DNA of 50,910 nucleotides from a virus: the IMG/VR virus record IMGVR_UViG_3300036768_001306, positions 1 through 50,910 of that record; one strand, written 5' to 3'. A model generated the notes under the pieces. It saw only the letters and a list, made by a program, of their open reading frames with translations, did no database searches and was not told the DNA's origin. The position numbers were made by a program, and so were the translations under genes. Of the stretch, positions 27,614-29,481 are shown piece by piece (the stretch's first letter is position 1; each line of letters begins with the position of its first letter).

Positions 27614-27632
27614 TCTAACCTCCTGCGTGTTG

Positions 27633-27638
27633 ATTATA
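27633..27638 (-). promoter_or_regulatory. Extended -10 box before terS
   Basis: TGATATAAT on the minus strand, 20 nt before the terS ATG, inside a leader with repeated ACGCAT motifs. Candidate proximal promoter of the virion operon. Confidence 0.45.
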
Positions 27639-27718
27639 TCACATGCGTGTTCGATGCGTGTTATGCGTCTTTATGTGCGCCTTATGAGCCTTTTATGAGT
27701 CTTTTCAAGATGAGCTAA

Positions 27719-28003
27719 ATTACCCCCTTCTCTCCCCTATGGTTCCTTTTCCCCCCACCTCCCTCTCCCTCTACGCTCCCCTTCCCCCTCCTCTCTCTCT
27801 TTCTCTCTTCTCTCTCACACTCTCTCTTCTCTCTATCTCACTCTCTAATTCTTTAATACTTAGTATGCTTTAAGCATTCACCCCCTACCCCTTCTCACTC
27901 CCTCTCCCTCCGGTGTTATATTCACTTGCCCCCTTTTTTCTCCTTAACCCCTCTCATCCCCCTATCCCCCTCTTGTCTAATAAAATATTAGACACCCATC
28001 TCC
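27719..28003 (-). repeat. Polypurine leader of the virion operon (polypyrimidine on plus)
   Basis: About 280 nt without a gene. The plus strand is almost all C and T with CTCT and CCCC runs. On the minus strand it reads AAGCATACTAAGTA, a short AT-rich stretch, then GAGAGTGAGATAGAGAGAAG and GAGAGTGTGAGAG. The same ordered elements recur in the opposite orientation at 39828-39920. In both places they precede a large operon in its sense direction, so they may be a shared promoter or leader element. Confidence 0.7.
27975..27993. promoter_or_regulatory. Perfect palindrome GTCTAATA/TATTAGAC
   Basis: An 8-bp perfect inverted repeat with a 3-nt AAA centre within the pyrimidine tract. AT-rich in a C-rich setting; looks like an operator or a small hairpin in the virion-operon leader. 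Confidence 0.5.
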
Positions 28004-28067
28004 CCCAACTTAGCTCGACTCTGACGCGGTGACCTCGTTACACGGATGGATGGCTTGGATGGTGTCC

Positions 28068-28096
28068 TTGACAGAATGACAGACTTGTGTTATGAT
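28068..28096 (+). promoter_or_regulatory. Sigma-70 promoter of the tRNA gene
   Basis: TTGACA (28068-28073), exactly 17 nt spacer, TATGAT (28091-28096). The predicted start is about 20 nt before the tRNA. The best canonical promoter in the window. Confidence 0.85.
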
Positions 28097-28123
28097 ACGG
28101 CTGAGGGGTGAGCGAGCGCGGGT

Positions 28124-28200
28124 TGGGCTGTAGCTCAATCGGAGAGAGCACCCGCCTTATAAGCGGGAGGTTTCTGGTTCAACTCCAGACAGCCCAACCA
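28124..28200 (+). tRNA. tRNA-Ile(UAU)
   Basis: A complete 77-nt tRNA with encoded CCA: acceptor TGGGCTG/CAGCCCA, D stem GCTC/GAGC, anticodon stem CCCGC/GCGGG with loop CTTATAA (anticodon TAT), T arm TCTGG-TTCAACT-CCAGA. It would read AUA isoleucine codons directly, without the lysidine-modified CAU tRNA most bacteria use. The first pair is U-A, unusual for isoleucine tRNAs. It stands alone in the control region with its own promoter. Confidence 0.92.
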
Positions 28201-28535
28201 AGCGAGCGAGTGGTTTTTACTGCTGCCTAAAAGATACAACGCAGCAGCTAAGCATAGATTCTTTACGCACTGCTCAGTGCACTGAGTAAAAGTACGCAGC
28301 GAACTGAGTAAAACGCATGCTGACAACGATAGTGGTCAATGCGGTGGTTGTGAAATGTTGCGCATGTTCGTGACGGGAAATGAGGGTTTCGTGAAGTGGC
28401 AAAATTTGGTGGAGTGGTTCGCCACTGCATTTGATTCCTCGTCTCGATTTTCGGTTCCATCTAACTCGCTGTACTGCAACACCTTACGCAACGCTCTTAC
28501 GCTCTGCAGAGATTGAATCTCAGCATGTACGATTC
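28201..28535. other. Non-coding stretch after tRNA
   Basis: No convincing gene. Visible are a short palindrome GCACTGCTCAGTGC (28267-28280), the direct repeat ACTGAGTAAAA (28278-28288 and 28305-28315) and an AGTGG/CCACT inverted repeat. No clear terminator for the tRNA transcript was found. Confidence 0.5.
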
Positions 28536-28584
28536 TGTGACAATCGTCAAACTTGCGATTACATGAAAAAATCGTGAGCAAGCT

Positions 28585-28600
28585 TGGCATGCTTTTTGCG
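28585..28600 (+). promoter_or_regulatory. Sigma-54-type promoter P1 (plus)
   Basis: TGGCATG-CTTT-TTGC with exact GG-N10-GC spacing; preceded by CT as in the consensus. Directed toward the early operon. Confidence 0.75.
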
Positions 28601-28675
28601 TACATGCTAAGCTATTATGCTTCAAGCATTTACGCTTATGCTCTAAAGCATTGAGCTGCAACGGTTTACAGCATA

Positions 28676-28691
28676 AGCAAGATTCATGCCA
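28676..28691 (-). promoter_or_regulatory. Sigma-54-type promoter M1 (minus)
   Basis: Minus strand TGGCATG-AATC-TTGCT, correct spacing, directed toward the tRNA and virion operon side. Confidence 0.75.
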
Positions 28692-28787
28692 AGATTCAAG
28701 CTTGCTGTGTGATCGTGCAAAGAGCATGTCTCAACATGTGCAATATTGCGACAAATCGGTGACAATATTGTGACGGCATGCTTCGGT

Positions 28788-28803
28788 AGCAAGTCTCATG
28801 CCA
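28788..28803 (-). promoter_or_regulatory. Sigma-54-type promoter M2 (minus)
   Basis: Minus strand TGGCATG-AGAC-TTGCT, correct spacing, flanked by TCT as in M1. Confidence 0.75.
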
Positions 28804-28867
28804 AGATTCACCGTTGATGTTACAAAAACGTGACAAATCGAGCGTGATTGTCATGGTCTCAACAAGT

Positions 28868-28883
28868 TGGCATGGGTCTTGCA
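28868..28883 (+). promoter_or_regulatory. Sigma-54-type promoter P2 (plus)
   Basis: TGGCATG-GGTC-TTGCA. Its -12 element forms the palindrome TTGCATATATGCAA with that of M3. Confidence 0.78.
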
Positions 28884-28887
28884 TATA

Positions 28888-28903
28888 TGCAAAAACCGTG
28901 CCA
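28888..28903 (-). promoter_or_regulatory. Sigma-54-type promoter M3 (minus)
   Basis: Minus strand TGGCACG-GTTT-TTGCA, a perfect consensus match, facing P2. Confidence 0.8.
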
Positions 28904-28908
28904 ACGCT

Positions 28909-28924
28909 TGGCACGAAACTTGCT
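28909..28924 (+). promoter_or_regulatory. Sigma-54-type promoter P3 (plus)
   Basis: TGGCACG-AAAC-TTGCT, perfect consensus match. Confidence 0.85.
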
Positions 28925-28948
28925 ACGCGTTACAAGCGGCGTCAATCT

Positions 28949-28964
28949 TGGCACGTTGCTTGCA
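28949..28964 (+). promoter_or_regulatory. Sigma-54-type promoter P4 (plus)
   Basis: TGGCACG-TTGC-TTGCA, perfect consensus match. Its -12 element forms TTGCAATTGCAA with M4. Confidence 0.85.
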
Positions 28965-28966
28965 AT

Positions 28967-28982
28967 TGCAAGAATCGGGCCA
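28967..28982 (-). promoter_or_regulatory. Sigma-54-type promoter M4 (minus)
   Basis: Minus strand TGGCCCG-ATTC-TTGCA, one mismatch in the -24 element, facing P4. Confidence 0.65.
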
Positions 28983-29053
28983 AATTCTGGCTTTATACGT
29001 CTTAACTTTACCATTTAGGGGGTTTGGGGGGTGGCGGGGGAGGTGGTGTGTGT

Positions 29054-29187
29054 GCGTGGGTGGTGCGTGGGTGGTGCGCGGGTGCGTGGGTGGTGCGTGG
29101 GTGGTGCGCGGGTGCGTGGGTGGTGCGTGGGTGGTGCGTGGGTGGTGCGCGGGTGCGTGGGTGGTGCGTGGGTGGTGCGTGGGTGGT
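29054..29187 (+). repeat. G-rich tandem array (11-bp and 8-bp units)
   Basis: Ten copies of GCGTGGGTGGT interspersed with three copies of GCGCGGGT in the order 2+1, 2+1, 3+1, 3. The plus strand and its RNA could form G-quadruplexes. Frames through the array give low-complexity Val/Gly/Trp peptides and are not credible genes. It lies just downstream of the P4 start. Confidence 0.9.
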
Positions 29188-29226
29188 GTGGTGCTACACA
29201 CCACCACCCAACCCCAACGGTTGGGG
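29182..29226 (+). ncRNA. Two hairpins closing the G-rich array
   Basis: GGTGGTGTG pairs with CACACCACC (29182-29205), using the last array unit, and CCCCAA pairs with TTGGGG (29212-29226). In RNA these compete with G-quadruplex formation in the array. Confidence 0.55.
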
Positions 29227-29250
29227 GGTGACTACATCCAACCCCGGCTA

Positions 29251-29329
29251 GGTAGTGCGGTATGCTTTGCCACGGGAAACCGTCTCGGTTACGCTCTGGC
29301 GAGCGTCACTACCGCTGGCGCAAGAGCAT
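29251..29329 (+). ncRNA. Structured leader RNA: three-way junction with pseudoknot
   Basis: A stem GGTAGTG/CACTACC (29251-29257, 29307-29313) encloses two hairpins, AACCG/CGGTT and ACGCTC/GAGCGT. The single strand ATGCTTTGC (29262-29270) inside it can pair with GCAAGAGCAT (29320-29329) outside, a pseudoknot with one bulge. It lies upstream of the first gene's SD-proximal pseudoknot and may correspond to the first member of the tandem pairs seen further on. A strong GCCAACCG/CGGTTGGC hairpin (29379-29401 area) follows. Confidence 0.55.
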
Positions 29330-29405
29330 CGGCTACCAGTAACGGCGTGTTGGTGCGTCACCCCCCGCGGTTTCACTTGCCAACCGTGCTAGCCGGTTGG
29401 CGCAA

Positions 29406-29469
29406 GCTTGCGTCACGCAATAAACGCTCACGCACGTGACGCAAGCAAAAAAAATAAATTGCGTGAGCG
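29406..29469 (+). ncRNA. SD-proximal pseudoknot PK0
   Basis: Helix 1 GCTTGCGTCACG/CGTGACGCAAGC (12 bp). Loop bases CGCTCACGCA (29425-29434) pair with TGCGTGAGCG (29460-29469) across an A-rich 13-nt loop. The Shine-Dalgarno GAAGGGGG begins at the next base, before the ATG at 29482. Confidence 0.85.
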
Positions 29470-29481
29470 GAAGGGGGAAAC

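Follow-up and report, generated by a model that had tools for sequence, protein, structure and literature searches.

The analysis of a viral DNA stretch of 50,910 nucleotides (IMG/VR record IMGVR_UViG_3300036768_001306, hereafter the window) outlined an array of eight predicted sigma-54 sites in its noncoding control region, and comparative searches revealed that such arrays are widespread in phage sequence and not peculiar to the phage of the window. The best explanation for the array is that it constitutes a bidirectional docking array for sigma-54 RNA polymerase, gated by host activators, to which we assign a probability of roughly 0.5; the main rival explanation is that it acts as a sponge for the same polymerase or its sigma factor.

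The array spans positions 28585-28982 and comprises instances of the TGGCAYG-N4-TTGC motif (Table 1). The original prediction had listed eight matches in this interval, four per strand; the coordinates and strands hold, but a scan with the pattern TGGCAYGNNNNTTGC returns seven exact sites, the eighth presenting a single mismatch. The same scan bore out the claims that all eight sites conserve the GG-N10-GC spacing and that three of them (28889, 28909 and 28949) carry the full TGGCACG-N4-TTGCW consensus. A W follows TTGC in seven of the eight sites, whereas a T before TGG and a Y as the last spacer base are present in all of them, and by sequence (GG-N10-GC with TGGCAYR and TTGCW) they belong with sigma-54 sites. 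The two face-to-face pairs (28868/28889 and 28949/28968) present 6 and 4 bp between their TTGC boxes, the sites at 28889 and 28909 form a back-to-back pair, and orientation thus changes about every 20 bp in the right half of the cluster. The core of the pair formed by sites 7 and 8, TTGCAATTGCAA, is as in Pseudomonas phages, with a BLAST match to phage SYP, and the TACGCGT flank on the 3' side of site 6 is also present in Pseudomonas phages SYP and phiPMW.

Table 1. Predicted sigma-54 sites and other features of the control region in the window.
Feature	Sequence	Position	Strand	Remarks
Sigma-54 site 1 (predicted)	TGGCATGCTTTTTGC	28585..28599	+	exact match, 18.1 bits; unpaired
Sigma-54 site 2 (predicted)	TGGCATGAATCTTGC	28677..28691	-	exact match, 20.4 bits; unpaired
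Sigma-54 site 3 (predicted)	TGGCATGAGACTTGC	28789..28803	-	exact match, 18.7 bits; unpaired
Sigma-54 site 4 (predicted)	TGGCATGGGTCTTGC	28868..28882	+	exact match, inverted repeat, 18.5 bits; left half of face-to-face pair
Sigma-54 site 5 (predicted)	TGGCACGGTTTTTGC	28889..28903	-	exact, full consensus, 20.9 bits; right half with site 4
Sigma-54 site 6 (predicted)	TGGCACGAAACTTGC then TACGCGT	28909..28923	+	exact match, 20.4 bits
Sigma-54 site 7 (predicted)	TGGCACGTTGCTTGC	28949..28963	+	exact match, inverted repeat; left half of face-to-face pair
Sigma-54 site 8 (predicted)	TGGCCCGATTCTTGC	28968..28982	-	one mismatch (TGGCCCG), 18.9 bits; right half with site 7
Noncoding control region		27614..29481		1.9 kb, between leftward late and rightward early/replication blocks
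Sigma-70-like promoter of tRNA-Ile gene	TTGACA-N17-TATGAT	28068..28096	+	outside array
tRNA-Ile gene		28124..28200		within noncoding control region
Short repeats	GTGACAAT / GACAAATCG / CAATATTG	28529..28855		direct repeats between sites

The claim that so many sites could not credibly arise by chance was upheld. The observed count was reached in none of 100 dinucleotide shuffles of the window, and the number of exact sites expected analytically is 0.05 for the entire window, counting both strands, or 0.0004 for each 400 bp. Only two further matches with at most one mismatch, both isolated, were detected in the 50.9 kb (12547 and 16388). When scored with a matrix built from 42 intergenic sense sites in Escherichia coli sigma-54 ChIP-seq data (PMC4591121), the array sites reach 17.6-20.9 bits, against 15.8 for the highest-scoring site in the rest of the window. 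All eight rank between the 71st and 98th percentiles of those E. coli sites, above glnA and pspA, and Markov simulations yielded at most three sites of 11 bits or more in any 400 bp.

The control region separates a late block, with RNase E-like, terminase, portal and protease genes, from an early/replication block encoding ERF, Prim-Pol and DnaB. The short repeats interspersed with the sites are located at the distances expected of activator-binding sites, and are possible candidates for such elements. The array is bordered directly on its right by G-rich tandem GTGCGTGGGTGG repeats on the plus strand (29011-29220), and a long tract rich in pyrimidines (27719-27990) is found on its left side. 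An Rfam scan matched the tRNA alone, and no DnaA boxes were detected in the window. The sequences of the closest relatives (L001 and L002, with terminase identities of 94% and 92%) end just before the array; ERF and Prim-Pol scans for relatives spanning it returned none, and a scan with the 671-aa early protein returned a single, distant one (L004).

Face-to-face pairs of sites were identified in at least 119 IMG/VR stretches from many unrelated lineages, and back-to-back pairs in 68 stretches, while control searches over IMG/VR with the reversed face-to-face pattern or with an N5 spacer in place of N4 did not return any matches. The face-to-face pattern produced only four matches in 85,000 bacterial and archaeal genomes (257 Gb), searched with a narrower pair gap (0-12, versus 0-24 in IMG/VR). 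Within contigs, the sites are limited to one or a few clusters, with the reversed control nearly nil, and in some phages up to 14 alternating sites are tiled. Classified by the proteins that they share, the loci from the first scan and the cultured records form 58 groups, the lineages not being fully independent and the gene calls in related loci being crude. In a phage contig of 335 kb (L136), a pair is located 97-141 bp upstream of most genes in an early region; between 257500 and 277400, about 19 intergenic cassettes present a pair with core TTGCATTAAGCAA, followed by a conserved AT-rich AACTCTAAAAAGATAT element, a ribosome site and a gene. Repeated intergenic cassettes in two other contigs (L177 and L056) have sigma-54 sites flanking GGGGCCCC hairpins. 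The cyanophage marker psbA was absent from 48 records, and no array has as yet been observed in a phage marked as cyanobacterial. The original view that phages depending on sigma-54 for their main early promoters are hardly known is at odds with this prevalence, although no published description of such arrays was found in the open-access literature, most subscription journals falling outside it.

The arrays behind these statistics were found by motif search, and the comparison of matrices rests on 240 distinct sites from 39 lineages that lie outside the searched pairs. Their composition correlates with that of the E. coli ChIP-seq sites over the core positions (r=0.84, permutation p 0.002), and phage and E. 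coli sites (PMC4591121) share the -24/-12 sequence, the GG-N10-GC spacing and the degeneracy at each position. Both sets have the invariant GG and GC and a W behind TTGC, and they agree in their C/T and G/A ambiguities, with C/T frequencies at the Y position of 0.60/0.38 in the phage lineages and 0.57/0.33 in E. coli.

No sigma-54 DNA-binding domain was detected in 48 related records other than the window, and none of 49 records, the window among them, encodes a sigma-54 activator domain, which led us to discard a phage-encoded sigma-54 or activator among the records tested. A common phage regulator was discarded as well, the terminase large subunit being the only protein family that recurs across lineages, and a reported sigma-54 factor of Studiervirinae proved to be a weak HHpred match in another phage. 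The rpoN gene is present in all four metagenome-assembled genomes carrying face-to-face pairs in the genome collection. Pseudomonas and Vibrio, the hosts of the cultured carriers, have RpoN, and we know of no other protein with a motif of the TGGCAYG-N4-TTGC type. That a single specificity recurs in unrelated phages, which have no regulator in common, speaks for a conserved host protein, and sigma-54 fits this role. The ligand is hence likely to be a host factor, sigma-54, and the proposal of sigma-54-type recognition is well supported by the strict spacing, the E. coli-like degeneracy, the rpoN genes and the Pseudomonas and Vibrio hosts. Recognition of the sites by sigma-54 is, overall, highly likely.

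The regular pitch of about 20-23 bp, the alternating orientation, the frequent closeness to terminase and the pre-early location in T5-like Vibrio phages would also suit another ligand, such as a phage regulator, a replication initiator or a packaging protein, with a motif merely resembling the -24/-12 elements. This reading is unlikely, given that the same specificity appears in unrelated phages lacking a common regulator, that the N4 spacer is strict and the degeneracy no different from that of sigma-54 in E. coli, and that the gap between paired sites varies from 3 to 7 bp.

BLAST searches with array sequences matched Pseudomonas phages (Pakpunavirus, phiPMW and vB_PpS_SYP) and T5-like Vibrio phages (VCPH and a group of several hundred records, of which D419 was inspected), these many records amounting to few independent lineages. 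Weak matches in Salmonella, Klebsiella, Listeria and Pseudoalteromonas phages were set aside, no array being present in the two inspected. SYP, phiPMW and PAK_P4, which belong to different groups, have conserved -24/-12 boxes in the pair but differ in both spacers, and a conserved element adjoins the pair. Three Pseudomonas phages of different groups present a conserved noncoding TCTCCGGTGCTCGG-N6-CCTGCGTTGCCCGC element between sigma-54 sites (L128, 12040-12105; L132, 5990-6105; L131, 6035-6110), a tentative candidate for an activator-binding element; neither L131 nor L132, the two that were scanned, has an Rfam match to it. The six exact sites of PAK_P4 form two clusters, and all of them fall within the two RNA-seq-based antisense RNAs that are annotated for the part examined (43 kb, 49.8-93 kb), a coincidence that is suggestive only, the ends of these RNAs having been rounded by the depositors and as17 beginning upstream of its sites. 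In Vibrio phage VCPH (L133, 1607-2880), the array lies with DnaA-box-like TTATCCACA repeats between the pre-early A2-A3 genes and the rightward genes, a junction at which T5-like phages are thought to halt first-step DNA transfer. A host protein also figures in the Pakpunavirus K5, a Pseudomonas phage, where SrpA has been described on a TATC-N-GATA palindrome (PMC5945682); the palindromic, host-protein setting would be common to both cases, but the sequence differs, and the SrpA palindrome was rejected as the array motif.

The sites are predominantly intergenic, with 58 of 1078 (5%) inside ORFs against a coding fraction of 68%. In gaps between tandem genes, 127 phage sites are co-directional and 141 opposed, compared to 42:8 in E. 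coli (p 1e-6, with crude gene calls), and single sites behave similarly (35:28 versus 42:8, p 0.002); across the arrays, the orientation toward a transcribed gene that is characteristic of promoters is not observed. Intergenic sites in E. coli are mostly single and gene-directed (42 sense, 8 antisense; PMC4591121), whereas phage sites are clustered and form pairs on both strands. These results bear on the notion, advanced in the original prediction, that the sites are the main early promoters of the phage. The excellent consensus, the four plus-strand sites facing the early block and the plausible spacing between plus-strand sites and some genes of L136 and L178 agree with ordinary one-directional sigma-54 promoters for the main early genes. 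Nonetheless, the other four sites face the opposite way, the nearest late gene being about 1 kb from the minus-strand sites; 530 bp separate the last plus-strand site from the start of the nearest early gene, several facing pairs overlap and co-direction is lacking, which makes this interpretation highly improbable.

The same lack of orientation toward genes is compatible with a sponge, in which the array would titrate host sigma-54, or park its polymerase, while the phage DNA is being replicated, with no need for transcription, and would thereby damp responses that depend on sigma-54, for example phage shock, motility or nitrogen control. Array sites stronger than most natural E. coli sites, their intergenic placement, their dense alternation and the absence of a phage activator all favour such a role. 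Facing pairs, however, cannot both hold holoenzyme and would represent wasted capacity, yet gaps of 3-7 bp are strongly preferred; moreover, one pair precedes most early genes of the 335-kb phage by 97-141 bp, and the PAK_P4 clusters overlap antisense RNAs. A sponge, with the damping that it entails, is therefore possible but doubtful. Both this reading and bidirectional promoters predict occupancy by sigma-54.

The geometry of the pairs was analysed in 182 distinct instances, with predicted starts separated by 13-20 bp (peak at 19, within 18-20) and a gap of 70% A+T between paired sites. Bidirectional sigma-70 promoters have divergent starts 7-25 bp apart, with a peak at 18 bp (PMC10268837). 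Like the phage pairs, as predicted, they combine facing core elements, a common melting zone and starts about 18 bp apart, but they rely on a symmetric -10 element, whereas the phage pairs present independent half-sites with sigma-54 elements that would be fired only by an AAA+ activator. The two halves of a pair are less alike than shuffled partners (0.27 versus 0.31), which argues for independent polymerase half-sites and not for a hairpin or a perfect palindrome. RNA hairpins, terminators or chance are hence exceedingly improbable sources of the arrays: the sites have a palindromic look and one terminator-like stem is present (sites 5 and 6, 28896-28916, with a 9-bp stem and then TTTTT on the minus strand), but partner spacers are less complementary than shuffled ones, most pairs lack a subsequent T run, and chance is excluded by the shuffles, the analytic expectation and the reversed and N5 controls. 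The cores TTGCATATATGCAA (28868-28903) and TTGCATTAAGCAA (L136) resemble the LuxO activator box TTGCA-N3-TGCAA, a likeness to which the facing of two TTGCA elements may in itself give rise.

The pair geometry, with starts 16-20 bp apart and an AT-rich gap, the independence of the sites and the L136 cassettes favour bidirectional, activator-gated promoters. Computation establishes the sites, their sigma-54 match, their recurrence in unrelated phages, the pairing, the intergenic location, the lack of orientation toward genes and, for the records tested, the absence of a phage-encoded sigma-54 or activator; that sigma-54 binds, where transcription starts, that a host activator is needed and what the array is for are inferred. 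The array would provide high-affinity docking sites for the host sigma-54 RNA polymerase, and much of it would operate as bidirectional promoters, in which facing half-sites, with -12 elements 3-7 bp apart, could load one polymerase either way over a common AT-rich melting zone. In the preferred geometry, the predicted starts are on opposite strands, with 16-20 bp between them. Closed complexes poised at the sites would fire only while a host enhancer-binding protein is active, a requirement that would follow from the absence of a phage-encoded sigma-54 or AAA+ activator in the records tested, and transcripts would then leave the control region both leftward (antisense or toward the late side) and rightward (toward the early side). 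The lack of a preference for gene direction speaks against a pure promoter model, an objection softened by bidirectionality, and the up to 14 tiled sites exceed what a promoter needs and likewise weigh against a promoter reading.

T4-type phages contain mobile early-promoter cassettes, with sigma-70 promoters and stem-loops, between early genes; the cassettes of the 335-kb phage also repeat between early genes, but use sigma-54 pairs. Polymerase carrying sigma-54 stays inactive unless a host condition, for example nitrogen limitation, envelope stress, motility or RNA damage, is signalled by an AAA+ activator, and a tie of infection to such host states, as initially proposed, is a reasonable inference. 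It seems fairly probable that many unrelated phage lineages share a convergent strategy, overlooked so far, in which face-to-face sigma-54 polymerase arrays in the early control region serve as a host-state-gated bidirectional switch, a sigma-54 sponge, or both. The presence of arrays in cultured Pseudomonas and Vibrio phages, including the Pakpunavirus phages studied for therapy, makes the question directly testable. If true, many strong sites in the control region would let phages read the state of the host at entry, or partly disarm its stress response, and the arrays suggest an overlooked route by which phages couple their fate to a host regulator or deplete it.
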